Source: Candidatus Altimarinota bacterium (lineage in GTDB: Bacteria > Patescibacteriota > Gracilibacteria > UBA4473). From it: 50,247 bases of DNA. The position numbers and the translations under genes are program-made. Below, in pieces: positions 5,054 through 47,625 of the stretch (its first letter is position 1; the number at the start of each line of letters is the position of its first letter). Below the pieces are notes generated by a model. The model was not told where the DNA came from. It saw nothing but the letters and a program-made list of their open reading frames with translations, and did no database searches. The stretch is taken from contig JAIPGU010000001.1 of NCBI GenBank assembly GCA_021735575.1, forward strand, positions 1 to 50,247, given 5' to 3'.

Positions 5054-6931
5054 TTATATACTTTTTCGAAGATTTTTGAGTTGCGTGGGAGATAGAATTT
5101 TTCGTAAATCTTTATCAGATGCTTCTGTGACACCGCCGACTGATCCAAAATGTTGGATGAGTTTTTTGCGGGTAGCGTTTCCGATTCCCGGAATAGAATC
5201 GAGAATGGAAGTCGTGGCAGTCTTCTTTCGCACTGATCGGTTAAAGGTAATAGCGAATCGATGCGCCTCATCTCGAATACGTTGAAGAAGTTTGAGTGCG
5301 GGAGAGTCGAGTGAAATTTCGAGATGATCTTTTTTCCCAGGACGAAAAATCAGTTCTTCCCTTTTTGCAAGGGCGATAATTTGTTTGGAGGGCTTGAATG
5401 ATGGAGGGAATTTCTTTCCTTTTCTACATTCTCCTACCGCCTTCATAACTGAGGAAAGCTGTCCTTTCCCACCATCAATAACTATGAGATCCGGTATATT
5501 TTCCACTAAGTTTTGTTGTTTCTTTTTTTTCTTTTCCCCCTCCTCCAACTTTTCTTTTTTTAAAGGAGAAGAAGCAAGTCGGGCAAACCGGCGGGATAAA
5601 ACTTCTTTCAACGCCGCGAAATCATCAATTTTCCCGTCCTCCAATGTTCTCACGTGGAATCGCCTGTACTGGGATGTTTTTGGTTCCCCATCGAGAAATA
5701 CCACTTGACTGGCAACGGTAGCCGTGCCACTGAAATGTGAAATATCGAAACATTCGATACGTCTGGGAGGGGCGGAAAGTTTTAAAATCTGAGATAATTC
5801 CGGCAATGCTTTGGCAAAGTTTTCGGCATGAGAAAGCGCTTCTATTTTTTTGCGTTCAGCGAAATGTGCCGCATTTTTCCGTGCCATATCAAGGATGTTT
5901 TTTTTGTCTCCTCGTTGAGGAACTTGTAGGGACACGCCATGGCGTGTCCCTACGGATAATAAAATTTCTATTTTTTGTTTTTCTTCGATTTCTGATGGGA
6001 TATAAATTTCTTCCGGTTTTTCCACGACGTGTTCGTAAAACTGAAGCAAAAATCCTTCTATAATTTCCGCGTCATTAGAAAATTCTGGTGCGGCAAATTC
6101 TAATTCGTTCTGATCGAGCAATTTCCCGTTTCGAAAAGCAATGCGTATACAATACGCCGATGATCCTTCGCGAACGAAATCAATAAAATCCCGATCTTTG
6201 GTGTCGGAGAATTGGACAATTTGCTTTTGTGTGGAAGTTTCAATGGACGCAATCGTATCTCGCGTGCGGGCGGCGGCTTCGAAGTTTTTATCAGTGGCAA
6301 AGCGCATCATTCGTTCCTTCAGCACGCGTAGCACATCTTCCGTGCGTCCTCGGAGAAATTGTTTCATGAGATCTACTTGGCGGTTGTATTCGGCTTGACC
6401 TGATTCCAAGCCCCCTGTAACCACGAGCGGATAGTAATCGAGAGAAGATTTTACCATGCGCACGCGGAAAAATTTTTGGCAGAACCGGACGGTTGCCCGA
6501 AATTCTTTGACCGATGTTTTGGGACCGATATAGACCGAACCGTCTCGTACAATGCGTCGTGTGATTTCCATTTTGGGAAAATCTTCGTGCGTGATGCGGA
6601 GGTAGACAAAATTTTTATCGTCTTTTAGACGAACATTGAATCGGGGGTGGAGGTCTTTGACGAGATTGTTTTCCAAGATTAGGGCTTCTGTTTCCGACTG
6701 TGTGACACGTGTTTCAATGCGAGCAATTTTGGAGGTCATAATCTCCGTGCGGGTGACACCCTCATGAACCTCTTTTTTGGAAGATTGAAAATAACTTGAG
6801 ACTCGTTTTCTGATATTTTTTGCTTTTCCGACATAGAGCAAATGATCGTTTTGATCCCAAAACAGATAGCATCCGGAGGAGGAAGGAATACTTTTTGGTT
6901 GAAACGAAAATGCTTTTTTTTCTTTCTTCAC
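5054..6931 (-). CDS. uvrC: excinuclease ABC subunit C (UvrC)
   Basis: UvrC makes both incisions in nucleotide excision repair after UvrB is loaded at damage. The 625-residue protein has the GIY-YIG nuclease domain (about 15-95; SGCYLFWDQNDHLLYVGKAKNIRKR), the UvrB-binding UVR helix pair (about 200-235), the RNase H-like endonuclease domain containing IECFDISHFSG and LIVIDGGKGQ, and C-terminal helix-hairpin-helix repeats (SIPGIGNATRKKLIQHFGS). The start codon is GTG, preceded 8 nt upstream by TATACA, so the transcript may be leaderless. A 28-bp palindrome lies in frame at residues 327-336 (VGTRHGVSLQ). A Lys/Glu-rich low-complexity insert precedes NLVENIPDLIVIDGG. uvrB is also in this window but distant. 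Confidence 0.97.
   Translation of the reverse strand: MKKEKKAFSFQPKSIPSSSGCYLFWDQNDHLLYVGKAKNIRKRVSSYFQSSKKEVHEGVTRTEIMTSKIARIETRVTQSETEALILENNLVKDLHPRFNVRLKDDKNFVYLRITHEDFPKMEITRRIVRDGSVYIGPKTSVKEFRATVRFCQKFFRVRMVKSSLDYYPLVVTGGLESGQAEYNRQVDLMKQFLRGRTEDVLRVLKERMMRFATDKNFEAAARTRDTIASIETSTQKQIVQFSDTKDRDFIDFVREGSSAYCIRIAFRNGKLLDQNELEFAAPEFSNDAEIIEGFLLQFYEHVVEKPEEIYIPSEIEEKQKIEILLSVGTRHGVSLQVPQRGDKKNILDMARKNAAHFAERKKIEALSHAENFAKALPELSQILKLSAPPRRIECFDISHFSGTATVASQVVFLDGEPKTSQYRRFHVRTLEDGKIDDFAALKEVLSRRFARLASSPLKKEKLEEGEKKKKKQQNLVENIPDLIVIDGGKGQLSSVMKAVGECRKGKKFPPSFKPSKQIIALAKREELIFRPGKKDHLEISLDSPALKLLQRIRDEAHRFAITFNRSVRKKTATTSILDSIPGIGNATRKKLIQHFGSVGGVTEASDKDLRKILSPTQLKNLRKSI
5926..5953. repeat. 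28-bp REP-like palindrome inside uvrC
   Basis: A perfect 28-bp palindrome starts GTAGGGACACGCC and ends with its complement CTAC; the centre is CCATGG. It is read through in frame by uvrC as VGTRHGVSL. The same sequence with two changes lies at the folE-folK junction. Confidence 0.92.
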
Positions 6932-12089: not shown

Positions 12090-14417
12090 CTATTTTTTAA
12101 ATCGTCTACGAGATCCTTTCGCTGGAGCATCTTTGAGGAGTTTTTCACACTCTGCGAGCGTCAATTTTTTTGGTTCTTTGTCTTTTGGAATCTTGGCATT
12201 TTTTTTACCATCCGTAATGTAGGGACCGTAACGACCATTCAGCACTTTGATACCATTGTCAAAAATCTGAATATTTTTTTCGGCTTCTTGCTTTTTCTTT
12301 TCGGCGATAAGTTCCAACGCTTTTTTGTGCGTAATAGTGAATGGATCTTCGGGTTTGATAGATACAAATGTCGAACCAAATTTTATATAGGGTCCAAATC
12401 GTCCAAAATTCGTTGTAATCTCCTCTCCTTCTTCCGTTTTCCCAACACTTCTCGGGAGCTTAAAAAGTTCCAAAGCTTCCTCAAGTGTGACTTCTTCCAT
12501 TTTTTGGTTCGGAAGAAGAGACGCAAAACGCGGTTTTTCTTCATCGTCTTTGGTTCCCATCTGGACCATCGGTCCAAATCGTCCGATGCGGACAAAAATC
12601 GGTTTTTTCGTTTCCGGGTCTTTCCCCAGTTCTCGCATTTGACTGGCTTCTTCACGTGATACGTCTTCTGATTTTTTCACCTCTTTGTGGAATGGTTCAT
12701 AGAAATCCGAAATCATACGGTTCCATTTCTCTTTCCCTTCCGCTACGCGGTCAAATTCTTCTTCAACGCGAGCAGTAAAATTATAATCGAGTACATTAGA
12801 AAAATTCTTTACCAAGAAATCATTAACCACTTCTCCCATTTCCGTAGGAAAAAGTTTGGCACGTTCGGCGCCCGTAATTTCTGATTGTTCATCACTTTCA
12901 ATTTTGTCTTTTTTGAGAACAAGGACGGTAAAAAATCTTTGGCGTCCTTCCCGATCCCCCTTCTCGATGTACCCACGATCCTGAATCGTGGAAATCGTTG
13001 GTGCGTAGGTGGACGGACGTCCGATGCCCATCTCTTCCATTTTTTTAACTAAACTCGCTTCTGTGTACCGAGCTGGCGGACGAGCGTATGTCTGCCGTGC
13101 CTGCATGTGATCGAGTTTGAGTTCCTGTCCGACTTTGATTGGCGGAAGCATCTTATCCTCGAGAGGATTGGTCCCACTGTCATCATCAGTACTTTCGAAA
13201 TACACTTTCAAAAATCCATCAAACTTTATCACTTCACCTTGCGCACTGAGTGTGCGATCAGTGGTGGAAATTTTAATAGTCGCTGTTGTACGTTCCAGCT
13301 CTGCTTCGGCCATTTGGCTTGCGATAGTGCGTTTCCAGATAAGGTTGTAAAGTCGTTCTTGTCCAGAATCGCCAGAAATTGTATCTTGGGAAAGGTTCGT
13401 TGGACGAATCGCTTCGTGCGCTTCCTGAGCGCCTGCCGATTTCGTTTTATATTTTCTGGTTTGGACGTATTTTTTACCAAACTTTTTTTCTATCTCTTTC
13501 GCAGCCTGTGATAACGCTTGATTTGAAAGATTAACAGAATCAGTACGCATATAAGTAATTTTTCCTGCTTCATATAACCTTTGCGCAGTCATCATGGTTT
13601 GTTTCACGGAAAATCCCAATTTGCGACTGGCTTCCTGTTGAAGCGTGGAAGTGGTAAAAGGGGCTGCAGGAGATCGTTTCGCGGGTTTTGTTTCCAGATC
13701 CGAAACCTCGAATTCCGCCCCAACACATTTTTTCAAAAACTCGTGTGCCTCTTTTTCTGTTTTGAATTTTTCAGGAAGTTCGGCTCGTAACAGCGACGGC
13801 GCCGTCGCTGTTCCAGAGGAAAGATCAAATTCTGCCGTCACTTTGAATGAAGACGTGCTTTCGAACCCCTCGATTTCCTGTTCGCGTTCAACAATGATTC
13901 GCACAGCAACGGATTGAACGCGTCCAGCAGAAAGTCCGGTACGAATTTTTTTCCAAAGTACCGGCGACACCTCGTATCCCACGAGTCGGTCGAGTACTCG
14001 TCGTGCTTGCTGTGCGTCGACAAGATTCTTATCAATATGACGCGGATGCGCAACCGCTTCTTCCAATGCGGATTTTGTTATCTCATGAAAAACAATACGT
14101 TTTGTTTTTTTTTCATCAAGCTTGAGAGCAATGCTCAAGTGCCACGCAATAGCCTCTCCTTCGCGGTCTTCATCCGATGCCAGCCAGACCGTTTTGTCTT
14201 TGGCGGCTTTTCTCAATTCCGAAACGACTTTTGTTTTATCTTCCGAAATTTCGTAGGTTGGTTCAAATGTTCCATTTTTGATATCAATGGACATTCCTTT
14301 TGAGGGTAAATCCCGAATGTGTCCTAAACTGGATTTTACTTCAAAGTCCTTCCCCAAGTACTTTTCAATGGTTTTTGCTTTTGCGGGGGATTCTACAATT
14401 ACTAAGTTTTTTGCCAT
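12090..14417 (-). CDS. topA: DNA topoisomerase I (type IA)
   Basis: TopA relaxes negative supercoils by single-strand passage. The 775-residue protein begins with the TOPRIM domain (KNLVIVESPAKAKTIEKYLG, then DEDREGEAIAWH) and carries the active-site Tyr289 in ITYMRTDS. Instead of zinc fingers the C-terminus has three glycine-rich repeats (GRFGPMVQMG, GRFGPYIKFG, GRYGPYITDG), followed by a basic tail (GSRRRFKK). An in-frame palindrome lies at residues 203-210 (TATAPSLL) in a surface linker of domain II. A TATACT hexamer lies 12 nt upstream of the ATG, implying a very short leader. A 24-bp palindrome and tsaD lie upstream, divergent. Confidence 0.97.
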   Translation of the reverse strand: MAKNLVIVESPAKAKTIEKYLGKDFEVKSSLGHIRDLPSKGMSIDIKNGTFEPTYEISEDKTKVVSELRKAAKDKTVWLASDEDREGEAIAWHLSIALKLDEKKTKRIVFHEITKSALEEAVAHPRHIDKNLVDAQQARRVLDRLVGYEVSPVLWKKIRTGLSAGRVQSVAVRIIVEREQEIEGFESTSSFKVTAEFDLSSGTATAPSLLRAELPEKFKTEKEAHEFLKKCVGAEFEVSDLETKPAKRSPAAPFTTSTLQQEASRKLGFSVKQTMMTAQRLYEAGKITYMRTDSVNLSNQALSQAAKEIEKKFGKKYVQTRKYKTKSAGAQEAHEAIRPTNLSQDTISGDSGQERLYNLIWKRTIASQMAEAELERTTATIKISTTDRTLSAQGEVIKFDGFLKVYFESTDDDSGTNPLEDKMLPPIKVGQELKLDHMQARQTYARPPARYTEASLVKKMEEMGIGRPSTYAPTISTIQDRGYIEKGDREGRQRFFTVLVLKKDKIESDEQSEITGAERAKLFPTEMGEVVNDFLVKNFSNVLDYNFTARVEEEFDRVAEGKEKWNRMISDFYEPFHKEVKKSEDVSREEASQMRELGKDPETKKPIFVRIGRFGPMVQMGTKDDEEKPRFASLLPNQKMEEVTLEEALELFKLPRSVGKTEEGEEITTNFGRFGPYIKFGSTFVSIKPEDPFTITHKKALELIAEKKKQEAEKNIQIFDNGIKVLNGRYGPYITDGKKNAKIPKDKEPKKLTLAECEKLLKDAPAKGSRRRFKK
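13789..13812. repeat. 24-bp palindrome inside topA
   Basis: A perfect palindrome with arms AACAGCGACGGC and its complement, centre GGCGCC. topA reads it as TATAPSLL; the ACG GCG CCG frame is the same as used in korA, tsaD and the RAYT gene. Confidence 0.9.
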
Positions 14418-14642: not shown

Positions 14643-15716
14643 ATGAAAATTCTTGCTTTTGAAACCTCTTGCGACGATACAGGAGTAGCAATAGTCGAAA
14701 ACGGAACACGTGTGCTGGCAAATGTGAAACACTCACAAGTGGAACACAGTGTGTGGGGAGGCGTGGTACCGGAAATTGCCGCTCGACTTCATGCGGAACG
14801 GTGGCGGACAGTATTAAAAGAATGCTTAGCGCAACTTAGTTGCACTATTGATGATGTTGACGCGCTAGCCGTGACTGCGGGACCGGGACTACAGACGTCT
14901 TTGCTGGTGGGCACAACAGCGGCGAGTTTCCTATCTCTCCTAACCCCGAAAAAACTTATTCCTGTCCAGCATATTGCCGGACATATTGCGTCGGTGGCGT
15001 TAGAGCGTCCTGAATTCCAGAACCCCTCTGTCCGCCATGGCGGACATCTCCCCTTGCAAAGGGGAGCATTTCCAGCCCTAACGCTTGTAGCATCAGGCGG
15101 ACACACAGAATTCTACCGAATAGAAGATTTTGCACATGTCCAGAAAGTCGGACAGACGATCGATGATGCGTCAGGGGAGGCGTTTGATAAAGTGGCAAAA
15201 ATGCTGAAACTTGGGTATCCCGGGGGACCTTTGGTTTCCGCACAAGCCGAGAAAGGAGATGGCACAGCATTCGATCTTCCGCGACCATTACTTGCAAAAG
15301 ACTCTTTGGATTTTTCGTTTTCCGGGGTGAAAGCCGCGATTTATAGAATCGTCGCTGAGACGGCGCCGTCTCAGCGACAGAGTGAAAAATTTATTGCTGA
15401 CGTATGCGCAAGTTTTGAACAATGTGTCGTCGACATTTTCTTAAAAAAACTCGACCGAGCGCTCGACCGGTTTCCAGAATGCAGAGCCGTTCACTTTGTC
15501 GGAGGCGTATCTGCCAATAAGAGGCTTCGGGCAGAAATAGAAAAATTTTGCGAGAAAAACAATGTACAGTTTTATACAACCAAAAAGTTTGAATATTCTA
15601 CGGATAATGCCGCAATGATTGGTGCAGCGGCGTATTTTGCATACCAAAAGCATCCTGATATTGCGCAAGTGCAGTTCGTGGATGCGAATCCAGGGTTAGG
15701 GATAGTTAGAGAGTGA
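14643..15716 (+). CDS. tsaD: tRNA N6-adenosine threonylcarbamoyltransferase TsaD
   Basis: TsaD transfers the threonylcarbamoyl group to A37 of ANN-decoding tRNAs together with TsaB and TsaE. The ATG chosen gives 357 residues beginning MKILAFETSCDDTG. The metal-binding histidines are H110 and H114 in HIAGHIAS; ASGGHTEFYRI and FSFSGVKAAI follow, and the second half has GGVSANKRLR and TDNAAMIGAAAY. Two foreign-looking palindromic insertions are in frame: residues 130-142 (VRHGGHLPLQRGA, between two conserved blocks) and 237-246 (AETAPSQRQ). The upstream spacer is a degenerate TTATCTCG tandem that may mask the promoter. Confidence 0.96.
   Translation: MKILAFETSCDDTGVAIVENGTRVLANVKHSQVEHSVWGGVVPEIAARLHAERWRTVLKECLAQLSCTIDDVDALAVTAGPGLQTSLLVGTTAASFLSLLTPKKLIPVQHIAGHIASVALERPEFQNPSVRHGGHLPLQRGAFPALTLVASGGHTEFYRIEDFAHVQKVGQTIDDASGEAFDKVAKMLKLGYPGGPLVSAQAEKGDGTAFDLPRPLLAKDSLDFSFSGVKAAIYRIVAETAPSQRQSEKFIADVCASFEQCVVDIFLKKLDRALDRFPECRAVHFVGGVSANKRLRAEIEKFCEKNNVQFYTTKKFEYSTDNAAMIGAAAYFAYQKHPDIAQVQFVDANPGLGIVRE
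15030..15066. repeat. double palindrome inserted in tsaD
   Basis: Two adjacent hairpins, GTCCGCCATGGCGGAC (15030-15045) and CTCCCCTTGCAAAGGGGAG (15048-15066), are translated in frame. The first core recurs with one change at 20083 and 38669. Confidence 0.85.
15351..15378. repeat. 28-bp palindrome inside tsaD
   Basis: A perfect palindrome with arms GTCGCTGAGACGGC and its complement, centre GGCGCC, is translated as VAETAPSQR. Confidence 0.9.
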
Positions 15717-16364: not shown

Positions 16365-16392
16365 GTAGGGACATGCCATGGCATGTCCCTAC
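16365..16392. repeat. 28-bp palindrome supplying the folK stop codon
   Basis: A perfect palindrome starting GTAGGGACATGCC and ending CTAC, centre CCATGG. folK reads into it from the minus strand and stops at the TAG (16389-16391) formed by the GTAG end. Confidence 0.92.
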
Positions 16393-22365: not shown

Positions 22366-22499
22366 ATCAAGAATGAATTTTTAATTTCCAATTTTTAATT
22401 TTGTAAATAATGTCTCAATGTCTTAATTTTAAAAATTAAAAATTCAAAAAATTATTTAAAAATTACAAAATTTAACATTAAAAATTATTGTAGCAGAAT
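22366..22499. repeat. A/T-rich degenerate repeat spacer
   Basis: AATTTTTAATTTCC / AATTTTTAATTTTG and AAAATTAAAAATTC units dominate. The same type of sequence fills 1796-1860 and 24279-24360. Only A/T-rich repeats are visible. Confidence 0.5.
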
Positions 22500-24278
22500 A
22501 TGACTTCTCAAATTCGTCCCACTACTTCTTCCCCTTGTCCCTTGACGCGAACGCGCCTCAGAATTGTCGGACAAAGCGGATCCGGACTGCTCACAGTCGG
22601 CGAGATCGTCTGTAAAGCGCTACAGAATCTTGGGTTTTATCTGTGTGCAGATCGTGAGTATCTTTCTCTTATCAAGGGCGGGCATTCTGCATTTACCATA
22701 AATTTTGGGGCTTCTCCCGTGCATTCTCTGTCTCGGGAAGCTGATATTTTAGTCGCCATTGATAAGCATAGTTTAATGGAATATCATGATTCTCTTGTTC
22801 CAGAAGGAATATTTGTACACGGATATGAGAGAGTACAGGGAATCTCAGACATTCTGGATTCTATGAAAAAGAAAAAAGTAAATGTGGTTTCTGCTCCTGC
22901 CAGAACTCTTGCCACAGAAAATGGTGGCACGGTGCAGATGACCAATATGATTTTACTCGGTATGACGTGGGGGGTGCTGGGGTTTGATTTCAGCGTGGTG
23001 GGAGATTTGGTGCGAGAAAAGTTTAAGAAGAAAAAGGGAATTTTGGAAGTGGCGGTGAAGTGTTTAAAAGCTGGATTTGAATCCGTAACCGACACGGCGC
23101 CGTGTCGGCTACAAACACCAAAAAAGAAACCGAAAACATTGCTTCTCAACGGCAACCATGCAATTGCGCTCGGTGCGGTACACGCTGGAATGAGAGCATA
23201 CATCGCCTATCCCATGAGTCCGTCGAGTACGATTCTGGAATACGCCGCGCATATGGCGCGGGATACTGGGATTGTCGTCAAACAAGCCGAAGATGAAATT
23301 ACCGCCGCACAGATGGCGCTTGGGGCGATGTTCGCAGGCACGCGCGCATTGGTTGCGACGTCTGGTGGAGGATATGATTTGATGACAGAAACGGTAAGCT
23401 TGGCGGGAATTATAGAGAATCCACTCGTGATCGTTCTTGCCCAACGTCCTGGACCCGGAACAGGATTGCCAACATGGACCGCGCAGGGAGATTTGAATTT
23501 GGCGATTCATTCCTCGCACGGAGAATTTCCACGGGTGGTGATTGCATGTTCTGACCCTTCAGATGCATTTACCGGGATACAGCACGCTTTTAATCTGGCG
23601 GAGAAATATCAGATTCCGGTGATTTTTTTGACTGAAAAAGTGATCGCCGAATCCAATATGACGGTTCCCGAGTTTTCGCAGAAAAATATCCCCATTGAAC
23701 GAGGACTCGTGGAGGGGAAGAAATTGGAAAGTCTCAAAAGTTCTGACAGGTACCGAATTACAAAAGACGGCGTATCATTGCGGTGGATTCCGGGATCGAG
23801 TGAGACGCATTATTTCGCGAATGGCGATGAGCATAACGAATCTGGAGAAATTGATGAATCAGAGCGTACGGGAGAGATGTATGCCAAACGCATGAGAAAG
23901 CTAGAAACTCTCAAAAAAGATATCCCCGAGCCCGAAGTTTTTAGCGTGAAAGAAAACGCCGATATCTCTTTTGTCGGATGGGGAGGCTCTCTTACTGTGA
24001 TGCGGGACATTATCGAGATGATGAAGGAGCGGGGGGTAAAAGTGAATTATTTGCACTACCAGTATGTGTGGCCTTTGAAGACTGATTTATTGAACACATT
24101 TTTTGTTCACAATAAAAACATTCATCTTCTGGAGGGAAACTATGAAGGACAGTTGGGAACGAAGCTAGAAGGACTGACGGGGAAGAAATTCGCGGGGAAA
24201 TTGCTGAAATGGAATGGGAGACCGTTCTTTATCGAGGATATACAGAAGTATATAGGGAAGGCTTTAAAAAATTTTTAA
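22500..24278 (+). CDS. 2-oxoacid:ferredoxin oxidoreductase, fused gamma-alpha subunit
   Basis: Oxidative decarboxylation of a 2-oxoacid (2-oxoglutarate or a branched-chain acid; the exact substrate is not decidable) to acyl-CoA with reduced ferredoxin. The N-terminal gamma domain (about 18-185) has RIVGQSGSGLLTVGEIVCKAL and LIKGGHSAFTINF. The alpha domain (215-592) has NGNHAIALGAVHAGMRAYIAYPMSPSSTILEYAA, VKQAEDEITAAQMALGA and VATSGGGYDLMTE. The palindrome-derived peptide VTDTAPCRLQ (about 196-205) lies exactly in the linker between the two domains. The 592-residue fused form is normal for KorA-like proteins. The beta chain follows 96 nt downstream. Confidence 0.94.
   Translation: MTSQIRPTTSSPCPLTRTRLRIVGQSGSGLLTVGEIVCKALQNLGFYLCADREYLSLIKGGHSAFTINFGASPVHSLSREADILVAIDKHSLMEYHDSLVPEGIFVHGYERVQGISDILDSMKKKKVNVVSAPARTLATENGGTVQMTNMILLGMTWGVLGFDFSVVGDLVREKFKKKKGILEVAVKCLKAGFESVTDTAPCRLQTPKKKPKTLLLNGNHAIALGAVHAGMRAYIAYPMSPSSTILEYAAHMARDTGIVVKQAEDEITAAQMALGAMFAGTRALVATSGGGYDLMTETVSLAGIIENPLVIVLAQRPGPGTGLPTWTAQGDLNLAIHSSHGEFPRVVIACSDPSDAFTGIQHAFNLAEKYQIPVIFLTEKVIAESNMTVPEFSQKNIPIERGLVEGKKLESLKSSDRYRITKDGVSLRWIPGSSETHYFANGDEHNESGEIDESERTGEMYAKRMRKLETLKKDIPEPEVFSVKENADISFVGWGGSLTVMRDIIEMMKERGVKVNYLHYQYVWPLKTDLLNTFFVHNKNIHLLEGNYEGQLGTKLEGLTGKKFAGKLLKWNGRPFFIEDIQKYIGKALKNF
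23085..23112. repeat. 28-bp palindrome inside the oxidoreductase gamma-alpha gene
   Basis: GTAACCGACACGGC and GCCGTGTCGGCTAC pair with one mismatch around a GGCGCC centre. The core is identical to the copies in and next to the RAYT gene at 45873 and 46201. It is translated as VTDTAPCRL. Confidence 0.93.
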
Positions 24279-24374
24279 TTTCAAAATAATGTCTCAATAT
24301 TCAAATTTTAAAAATTAAAACATTAAAAAATTATTTAAAAATTATAAAATTACAAAATTGAAAATTCTCTCAGG

Positions 24375-45548: not shown

Positions 45549-45643
45549 TAACTGACACGACGCCGTGTCAGCTACAATAAAACACCGTGTCAGATACGGT
45601 AAAACGCCATATCAGCTACACTAAGGCGCTATGTCAGTTATAG
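45549..45643. repeat. 22-bp tandem degenerate REP array at the RAYT 3' end
   Basis: After one near-complete palindrome (TGACACGACGCCGTGTCAG) there follow four units of exactly 22-bp period (45562, 45584, 45606, 45628). Each contains a variant of GCCGTGTCAGCTACA. The last unit overlaps the stop of the transposase gene. Confidence 0.85.
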
Positions 45644-46189
45644 TTCGTCGATGAGATCGGGAAAATGTAAAGAAGTGTATTTCCAGTCTTCCGGTAATTC
45701 GTGTTTGTCGAAATTATATACGGTGTATTTGTAATGCTCCTCAAAATCTCTTTCATCGCGGATCACATGATCATAAAAAGAGCGTTGCCAACGGAAACAA
45801 GGGAAAAGGTGAGAATGTCCGTATTTTTGGGAAAATCGTTGTTGAAAAACCTCGATTTTTGATGATATTTGTAGCCGACACGGCGCCGTGTCGGCTGTAT
45901 CGGATATGACTTTATTGGCATCACGAGAAAAATTCTCTTTAAAAAATTTCATCACCTTCGAAACATCAAACTCCTCGCACGGACGCAAAAGCATATGAAA
46001 ATGATCGTAATTCAAACAAAACGCAAACAACTCAAATTTCTTCAGTTCTTTGCACAACCGCAATTCCCTCACCCACAATTCACACAAAATCTTTTCGCGA
46101 AAATATAGATACTGATTTTCCGTGTTAACCGTCACAAAATATACCGCCTCCGGAATGATGATTCGCTTTGTTCTCTTTAAAAACAACAT
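45638..46189 (-). CDS. REP-associated tyrosine transposase (RAYT, Y1_Tnp)
   Basis: IS200/IS605-like single-strand transposase domesticated to move or process REP palindromes. The 183-residue protein has the HUH motif HFH (63-65) in NYDHFHMLLRP and the tyrosine helix region FYDHVIRDERDFEEHYKYTVYN with Tyr155 or Tyr158 as nucleophile. Its own coding sequence contains the palindrome as DTADTAPCRLQ (98-107), in the middle between the HUH and tyrosine halves. It is flanked by a complete palindrome upstream (46201) and a tandem array downstream. The insertion may have inactivated it. Confidence 0.9.
   Translation of the reverse strand: MLFLKRTKRIIIPEAVYFVTVNTENQYLYFREKILCELWVRELRLCKELKKFELFAFCLNYDHFHMLLRPCEEFDVSKVMKFFKENFSRDANKVISDTADTAPCRLQISSKIEVFQQRFSQKYGHSHLFPCFRWQRSFYDHVIRDERDFEEHYKYTVYNFDKHELPEDWKYTSLHFPDLIDEL
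45873..45896. repeat. 24-bp palindrome inside the RAYT gene
   Basis: Perfect palindrome with arms AGCCGACACGGC, identical core to 23085 and 46201; GTAG arm on the left only. Confidence 0.93.
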
Positions 46190-46196
46190 TTTTTTA

Positions 46197-46631
46197 TCAG
46201 AGCCGACACGGCGCCGTGTCGGCTATAAATTTCTTTTTATTTTCAATATATTCTCCTCGTCCCGCAAAGTGCGTCGAAGAAAAACACAGCATGACCGCAT
46301 CCGAAGAGAAGTTTTTGAATTCATGCCAGCAAAGCGCACTGACATAAAGTCCCTTGTTTTTTTCATTCAAAACGACTTCTTGTTCTCTTTTTCCATCATG
46401 AAGAACCGCTGTCACACTCCCCGACACCGCTACAAACACTTCCTCCTCACATGTGTGTGCATGTCCTCCGCGAGTCTCTTCTGATGTACCAGTGATAATG
46501 TAAACACGTTTCACAGGAAACGGGAAACGGTTATCCAGTTCGAACGGAACTGTTTCTCCACGTTCATCGGAGAAGAAGGGAAATTCCAAAATTTTCCACC
46601 GTGGAACCGTATTCGATTTTGGATTTCCCAT
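46197..46631 (-). CDS. FdtA/WxcM-like cupin (sugar isomerase family)
   Basis: The chosen ATG gives 144 residues and begins just after the protease stop; an earlier ATG (46697) would overlap the protease. The cupin core reads RVYIITGTSEETRGGHAHTCEEEVFVAVSGSVTAVLHDG, with the HAH metal/substrate pair, then WHEFKNFSSDAVMLCFSSTHF. This is the pattern of FdtA-type dTDP-4-keto-6-deoxyhexose 3,4-ketoisomerases and WxcM-like proteins in glycan synthesis. The last eight residues (ADTAPCRL and the stop) come from the REP palindrome, so the native C-terminus was replaced. Confidence 0.82.
   Translation of the reverse strand: MGNPKSNTVPRWKILEFPFFSDERGETVPFELDNRFPFPVKRVYIITGTSEETRGGHAHTCEEEVFVAVSGSVTAVLHDGKREQEVVLNEKNKGLYVSALCWHEFKNFSSDAVMLCFSSTHFAGRGEYIENKKKFIADTAPCRL
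46201..46224. repeat. 24-bp palindrome ending the FdtA-like gene
   Basis: Perfect palindrome with arms AGCCGACACGGC. It encodes the last residues of the FdtA-like protein, whose TGA stop (46197-46199) lies directly beside it. Confidence 0.93.
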
Positions 46632-46632
46632 T

Positions 46633-47625
46633 TTATCGTTTAGATCGAAAATAATTCGTTCGAATAGAGGCAAACGAAGAAGACTGGGCTTTTTCATTTT
46701 CTGGGTCTAATCGCCTCGGAATACGGCGAAGCATCCGCCAACGAAGCCCCTGCGATAAACTGTCAATACTGTGTTCTTCCTTTTGTGATTGTACTGTTGT
46801 TTTAGACGTTTGTTGGTGATAAAAACGTAAAACTTCGGCCAAAACGTTGGGGCGTTCTGATCGATGAAGCAATATCCAATTTTGCAACTGCGGATATGCC
46901 AAAACGAGTGCATTCGAGTCAGTATCCTTCAAAGTTGGAATCCCCACAAAAACTCCGGTTTCATCAAATGCTGCTCCTCCGGAATTTCCAAAATTCACCT
47001 TCACATCAGTCAGATAATATATCTCTCCTGTATCCTTTCTTTGCGCCACGATTTGAATCGTCCCTCGTGTAATCGTAAGTGTATCTCCTCTTGCTTCTAT
47101 CGGACCACCCTCCTCTTGCCATTTTTTTATGTTTTCAAACGTTTTTGTACTCCCGAAATTCTGCATCCCTTCTGAAGGTCTCGGAAATCCGTAAATCCGA
47201 ATACGATCTCCCACACTGCTCCTTTGCAACGCGGTGCGAACGCGTGGAAAAAACACGCGAGAAGAGAGAGGGCGTACCAATGCCGTATCAAATTCTGGAT
47301 GTACTGCTACCACCGCCGCCGGAATGTTGCATTCTACCGAATGAGTTGCCTTTGATTGCGCCGGACAAAGAAGTAAAAAATCAGCGATAGATCCATCTTC
47401 ATGCGTAACGACGTGTTTATTCGTCAGAACTAAATCCTTTTCTATCGCCGTTCCCGATCCGAAAGACCGAACTTCTAGTTCTTCAGATATCTCGTTCCAA
47501 TCAAAAACAACAATCTGCAACAAACTCGGAGAGGAGTTTGCTTGCGCTATAAAGGGGATAAAAAGCCCTGCGCACAAAAGAAAGAATGATAATTTTTTCA
47601 CGCGAAAACCGTACGGATTTTCCAT
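46633..47625 (-). CDS. exported trypsin-like serine protease
   Basis: The chosen ATG gives a 330-residue precursor with signal peptide VKKLSFFLLCAGLFIPFIAQA; a GTG at 47601 directly before KKLSFF is a good alternative start. The catalytic triad is readable: His in VLTNKHVVTHEDG, Asp in HPEFDTALVRPL and Ser in VNFGNSGGAAFDETGVFVGI. It is a Deg/HtrA-like chymotrypsin fold without a PDZ domain. It lies divergent from the large exported protein, which could be its substrate, but this is only positional. Confidence 0.9.
   Translation of the reverse strand: MENPYGFRVKKLSFFLLCAGLFIPFIAQANSSPSLLQIVVFDWNEISEELEVRSFGSGTAIEKDLVLTNKHVVTHEDGSIADFLLLCPAQSKATHSVECNIPAAVVAVHPEFDTALVRPLSSRVFFPRVRTALQRSSVGDRIRIYGFPRPSEGMQNFGSTKTFENIKKWQEEGGPIEARGDTLTITRGTIQIVAQRKDTGEIYYLTDVKVNFGNSGGAAFDETGVFVGIPTLKDTDSNALVLAYPQLQNWILLHRSERPNVLAEVLRFYHQQTSKTTVQSQKEEHSIDSLSQGLRWRMLRRIPRRLDPENEKAQSSSFASIRTNYFRSKR

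Follow-up and report, generated by a model that had tools for sequence, protein, structure and literature searches.

Why does the gene of a REP-associated tyrosine transposase (RAYT) carry, in its own reading frame, a perfect copy of the palindrome that stands beside it? The question arises in the window, the whole stretch of 50,247 nucleotides analysed here, which belongs to a Candidatus Altimarinota genome (G000; 835 kb, 55 contigs, about 71% complete). The first-pass annotation had described the gene as surrounded and interrupted by its own palindrome, and the following features make up the locus.

45638-46189, minus strand: RAYT (TnpA-REP) gene, 183 aa, supported by ORF, profile match, alignment and model
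45995-46006, minus strand: DHFH motif of the RAYT
45725-45727, minus strand: codon of the catalytic Tyr155
45871-45898: internal REP, in frame in the middle of the RAYT gene, with a 24-bp perfect palindrome at 45873-45896
45871-45874, plus strand: GTAG foot of the internal REP
46201-46224: REP hairpin on the 5' side, ending 11 bp before the start codon (ATG) of the RAYT gene
46197-46697, minus strand: FdtA/WxcM-like cupin gene upstream of the RAYT (ORF and Pfam)
45549-45640, minus strand: 3' array of half-REPs (GTAGCTGACACGGCG-TTTTATT on that strand), period about 22 bp

Both the palindrome inside the gene and the copy directly upstream were found as first described: each consists of AGCCGACACGGC followed by GCCGTGTCGGCT and is 100% self-complementary. 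The internal copy is translated as part of the peptide ISDTADTAPCRLQIS and covers about residues 98-106 (TADTAPCRL), while the 5' copy encodes the C-terminus of the cupin (..IADTAPCRL). The 22-bp array of half-copies at the RAYT stop was likewise recovered, with a tandem-repeat core at 45563-45624 (2.8 copies, 77% match); it stays in register to 45640, at the stop codon, and its far side closes with one imperfect full palindrome (45549-45576). The GTAG expected at the hairpins is present at the internal copy and within the 3' array, but the 5' copy has lost it and carries ATAG/AGAG feet. Folding of the internal and 5' hairpins as single-stranded DNA was predicted at -12.3 and -12.4 kcal/mol (z about -5), and a 22-mer of the REP, with up to three mismatches, occurs three times in the window versus 0 in 100 shuffles. 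The 22-mer GTARCYGASACGGCGCCGTSTC had no match in a search of genome contigs, a set that may not contain the organism's own genome.

The assignment of the gene to a RAYT with its own REP family was borne out by the cognate flanking copies and by the NF047646 REP-associated tyrosine transposase profile, which matches over positions 1-145 of 146 with 83 bits (cut-off 80); Pfam Y1_Tnp also matches. The HUH pair (H63, H65) and Y155 are invariant across homologues in an 11-sequence alignment (A2) and align with those of E. coli TnpA-REP (4er8), which is also the top structural match of the predicted structure (mean pLDDT 86). The two enzymes thus share fold, HUH and tyrosine residues and association with REPs. 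The ORF is open throughout, including across the palindrome as first noted, and the gene is apparently intact. The Y motif, Y155-TVYNF, keeps Y and N and lacks the P of the class 2 TnpA-REP motif, given as Y---NP (PMC6006769); NP is found in several close homologues, and the closest one (in genome G002) likewise has YNF. In-frame TGA codons occur in the RAYT genes of several members of the class. Judged by its residues and predicted fold, the window RAYT is apparently an active enzyme.

The REPs on either side of the RAYT have further copies elsewhere in the genome. Seven exact 16-nt cores (GACACGGCGCCGTGTC) were detected, together with several GAGACGGCGCCGTCTC copies and degenerate ones, which agrees with the recurrence that the first-pass annotation had anticipated; the GCGACGGCGCCGTCGC type is represented by two exact copies and three with one mismatch. 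Within the window, REPs outside the RAYT locus lie at the following positions.

5926-5953: GTAGGGAC..GTCCCTAC REP, in frame in uvrC (LLSVGTRHGVSLQVPQ)
13789-13812: REP with the GCGACGGCGCCGTCGC core, in frame in topA (SSGTATAPSLLRAEL)
15353-15376: sister REP (GAGACGG core), in frame in tsaD (RIVAETAPSQRQS)
16365-16392: GTAGGGAC..GTCCCTAC REP, intergenic
23087-23110: REP of the RAYT's own family, its third copy in the window and one that the first-pass annotation had not listed, in frame in a 2-oxoacid:ferredoxin oxidoreductase gene (FESVTDTAPCRLQTP)

The window's REP family is dispersed and for the most part intragenic. Its hosts comprise genes for RluD-like (PseudoU_synth_2), POR/KorA, IleRS, TsaB-like, TsaD, glycerate kinase, UvrD/PcrA-like (two adjoining copies) and TopA proteins, the RAYT and the end of the cupin; TsaB, PcrA and some other names are presumptive, taken from recognised sequence features without a profile match. 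All 11 in-gene copies of the GASACGG type are read in the D/E-T-A-P frame. One of the three frames meets a TAG in the foot, which leaves only two open, so that chance alone would seldom place 11 of 11 copies in a single frame (probability about 0.001). A second family, GTAGGGAC-tip-GTCCCTAC, is the type of the two other G000 RAYTs and has 26 members in the genome, often intragenic, with several different tips that are each perfectly palindromic; we take its hosts to include uvrC, dxr, radA, ribD, aroA, valS and tilS. A match to the core on contig C28 was set aside as chance: it is a conserved stretch, reads as a TyrRS gene and has no palindrome.

Several further observations concern these genes and repeats. 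The RluD-like gene on contig C22 (L019) contains REPs of both families in frame, and its N-terminal region has an NDELRIKN repeat-like stretch absent from orthologues. The UvrD/PcrA-like gene (C30:7825-7861, L032) contains two adjacent REP cores that differ from each other. A genome from another family of the class (G033) holds six exact GACACGGCGCCGTGTC repeats with GAAGGC/GCCTTC-type feet (L033-L038), none clearly intragenic, unlike the G000 copies. AT-rich tandem repeats at 24307-24359 and 22429-22487 (27-bp and 20-bp units) are unrelated to REPs. The ileS gene on contig C21 of G000 (L026, L200) contains a His_Phos_1 histidine phosphatase (phosphoglycerate-mutase-like) domain in frame, between the catalytic and anticodon domains.

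Orthologues of the host genes in a genome of the same genus (G001) and in the family are without the REP peptides; G001 itself gave no RAYT match at the threshold used and no copy of the core. At 13 sites, manual reading of alignments gave a net length difference from the G001 orthologue of +2.0 aa on average (range -1 to +5). Clean insertion into the host genes was rejected, as 28-30 bp would add 9-10 aa. The double copy in pcrA corresponds to about 17 aa gained, and the second rluD copy and the tilS copy are length-neutral. Given the small net gain, the REP copies in host genes look like replacements of host sequence, an event that we infer from comparison with distant orthologues (mostly 50-80% identical). 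In radA of a genome from another genus (G012), a REP occupies the same site and differs by one compensated pair (GTAGGGAC..GTCCCTAC versus CTAGAGAC..GTCTCTAC). Di Nocera et al. (2013, PMC3733652) described in-frame REPs with GTAG in genes for repair proteins, tRNA synthetases and pseudouridine synthases. The copies reported here are similar in lying in frame in ordinary genes of the same kinds, and differ in the net gain of about 2 aa and in that all in-gene copies of the window family use one frame. Rickettsia palindromic elements (RPE) are also palindromic repeats that protein-coding genes read in frame; CGTC tags mark RPE-4/6, for which no association with a transposase was found (PMC3733652), whereas the window REP has a GTAG foot and a cognate RAYT.

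All three RAYTs of G000 carry their own palindrome between HUH and Tyr, the other two (contigs C16 and C41) with a different palindrome from that of the window gene; therefore the survey was extended to 112 RAYT genes of the class. An internal palindrome was detected in 41 of them, distributed over 27 of 49 genomes, compared with a mean of 1.35 in synonymous shuffles, and nearly all fall within 0.44-0.64 of gene length. A second set comprised 80 RAYTs from many phyla that are related to the C41 RAYT and overlap the class set by a few genes; 48 have an internal palindrome (shuffles 0-3), a rate that may be somewhat high because these genes were ordered by their similarity to a query that itself bears a palindrome. 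In this set, 46 palindromes lie between HUH and Tyr. The counts are conservative, since the first palindrome scan missed the internal copy of the G002 RAYT (L159) over a mismatch. Some RAYTs with a long linker carry no internal palindrome. In 87 kb of other genes, a single such palindrome was counted. The internal copies resemble the flanking palindromes of their own locus (median identity 0.90) far more than those of other loci (0.46). RAYT pairs that are 57-67% identical can share identical 28-nt palindromes, with third positions elsewhere agreeing at 40-50%. Over 95 pairs, mean identity is 0.68 in the palindrome versus 0.64 in the rest of the gene, and 0.64 versus 0.46 at third positions; averaged in this way, conservation of the palindrome exceeds that of the remaining gene only slightly.

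RAYT-like Y1_Tnp domains were also observed in frame in the editing-domain region of IleRS genes (L192, L193 and L194, in G025, G055 and G046) and LeuRS genes (L195, L196, L197 and L198, in G096, G018, G124 and G137). Pfam confirms Y1_Tnp within L192 and L197. The synthetase-embedded domains have seemingly intact HUH and Tyr motifs, with palindromes within the domains or immediately ahead of them; no description of such domains was found in the literature searched.

An internal REP is not in itself new. In-frame REPs between HUH and Y of tnpA-REP were described for subclass 2.4 and called unique to it (Quentin et al. 2018, PMC6006769); REPs of this subclass are double-footed, the insertion is at beta3:alphaC and the HUH motif is NH[IFV]H (PMC6006769). 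The window locus resembles it in having an in-gene REP between HUH and Y, a GTAG..CTAC double foot, and copies both beside the gene and dispersed in the genome. Subclass 2.4 also accommodates the C16 and C41 RAYTs: both have NH[IFV]H, and in the model of the C41 RAYT the REP peptide lies in the loop between strand 88-95 and helix 119-137, i.e., beta3:alphaC. The window RAYT differs from subclass 2.4 by having DHFH in place of NH[IFV]H, YNF in place of NNP, and its REP in alphaC:beta4 instead of beta3:alphaC. In its model, the REP-coded stretch avoids the HUH and Tyr motifs and joins helix 76-95 to helix 110-123, the alphaC:beta4 connection. Residues 99-106 form a disordered loop with pLDDT below 50, a possibility that the first-pass annotation had raised for the insert. 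In the E. coli enzyme (4er8) the WQ motif follows alphaC after only about five residues, which leaves no room there for a REP-coded loop. The in-gene REP is thus already published for one RAYT branch; here it is fixed and hairpin-preserving in a second branch, in a different loop. No report of the second loop, the covariation described below or the replacement-like pattern was found in the literature searched.

The window clade was defined by protein similarity as the RAYT homologues of at least 35% identity (n = 23). In 22 of the 23 genes, 12-14 of 14 pairs are kept. The first-pass annotation had considered self-insertion between HUH and Tyr unusual, a view overturned by this carriage, by the three of three RAYTs in G000 and by the published subclass. 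In the clade alignment, which was centred on the palindromes and so leans towards pairing, 97.8% of cells are paired, two-sided changes occur at 12 of 14 pairs, and covariation reaches 0.716, compared with 0.152 when shuffled and at most 0.14 when slid; alignment A3 additionally contains a row for the consensus of the window's REP family. The foot is conserved (GAAGGCG in most genes), and the tip varies on both sides together; most other members have GAAG feet, versus GTAG in the window gene. In L119, 7 of 14 pairs stand in the fixed register, yet a 9-bp hairpin with a GTAG foot and a 4-nt loop is present. The palindrome is read in two frames in the clade (18 versus 4 genes, n = 22) and in two among GTAG-type RAYTs (28 versus 13, n = 41), so that the peptide is not what is conserved.

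The same pattern appears between genomes. The first-pass annotation had reasoned that its reading would fail if all homologues had the same residues on non-palindromic DNA. This is not the case in the closest homologue, from G002 and 56% identical: the corresponding codons read SATAPSRLQ and are formed by another palindrome, GTAAGCGCGACGGCGCCGTCGCGCCTGC, whose core has 27 copies in the G002 genome at up to two mismatches. The idea that REP type had switched completely between G000 and G002 was rejected, since G000 retains two exact and three near copies of the G002 type. The dispersed GAAGGCGACACGGCGCCGTGTCGCCTTC of G033 and GTAGCCGACACGGCGCCGTGTCGGCTAC of G000, from genomes whose RAYTs are 52% identical, lie two compensated pairs apart; the inner 16 nt are identical and the differing pairs lie in the feet. 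Taken together, carriage by 22 of 23 genes and covariation at 12 of 14 pairs indicate that a DNA hairpin is preserved and not a peptide.

We therefore favor, at a probability of roughly 55%, that the locus is a REPtron, a RAYT with cognate REPs on the 5' side, within the coding sequence and at the 3' end, in which the palindrome is kept as a DNA (or mRNA) hairpin useful to the element as a cis site and the peptide is merely tolerated. By analogy with the biochemistry of E. coli TnpA-REP, the enzyme would recognise the foot of the single-stranded hairpin and cleave there, and REP copies could then spread through the genome via the lagging strand, presumably surviving in genes where a surface loop is replaced in frame. 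The internal copy may be retained because it acts as a master copy, linked to the enzyme and moving with it, or because it offers a site for self-limitation. More tentatively, and with the odds somewhat against it, we hypothesize that the internal REP is a selected part, acquired independently in at least two RAYT branches and in two loops, whereby a self-carried target would link enzyme and target in horizontal transfer and may limit expression, and that REPs enter genes by equal-length replacement at the fork.

Two rival accounts are serious: a cis-acting hot spot combined with a loop that tolerates the repeat, and correction of one arm templated by the other. If RAYT action is largely in cis, the transposase gene itself would be hit more often than others, and linker loops that tolerate 28-30 bp in frame would collect REPs neutrally. 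The dispersed REPs in surface-loop-like places of many other G000 genes, the use of two different RAYT loops, as permissive loops would lead one to expect, and the enrichment of flanking copies all suit this account, as does the published view that the internal REP has little impact on activity (PMC6006769). However, palindrome density falls from 3.1-4.0 per kb in the linker to 1.0-1.6 in the 100 bp bordering the gene and mostly to 0-0.3 at distances above 200 bp; the linker thus stands 2-3 fold above adjacent non-coding flanks that should tolerate more, and the near-universal carriage and covariation in the window clade exceed what is expected of a tolerated insertion. We regard a purely neutral hot spot as somewhat unlikely.

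Quasipalindrome correction is an established mutational process that can keep palindromes perfect without selection. Template switching between the arms could maintain the hairpin in this way, in which case the covariation would be silent on function, and the perfect pairing of GTAGGGAC copies with their various tips is what such a process would produce. It explains neither the constant position within the RAYT gene nor the clade-wide conserved foot beside varying tips, and we consider it unlikely.

A role for the REP-coded residues in the protein, for example in hairpin recognition near alphaC:beta4, appears quite improbable. Arg105 is invariant in the 11-sequence alignment, and alphaC:beta4 is near the REP-binding region in subclass 2.2 (PMC6006769), but 4 of 22 clade members use another frame, the segment is disordered in the model, and GTAG-type RAYTs use two frames and another loop. 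Selection on the REP peptide was accordingly judged unlikely. That the gene is an inactive relic of a formerly mobile RAYT scarred by its own repeat, as the first-pass annotation had allowed, is very improbable: YNF in place of NP and the missing GTAG of the 5' copy would fit, but YNF recurs in the closest homologue, the frame is open, HUH and Tyr are conserved, the profile match is full, the confident fold has 4er8 as its best match, and the palindrome is kept across homologues.

The REPtron reading bears on the spread of REPs and on the persistence of RAYTs at low copy. A cognate hairpin held in a coding sequence and kept paired by compensating changes offers an experimental handle, since synonymous recoding would part the DNA hairpin from the protein. 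The replacement-like pattern, if upheld in closer relatives, would point to a mode of integration that IS200/IS605 insertion models, which involve no loss of target sequence, do not predict.
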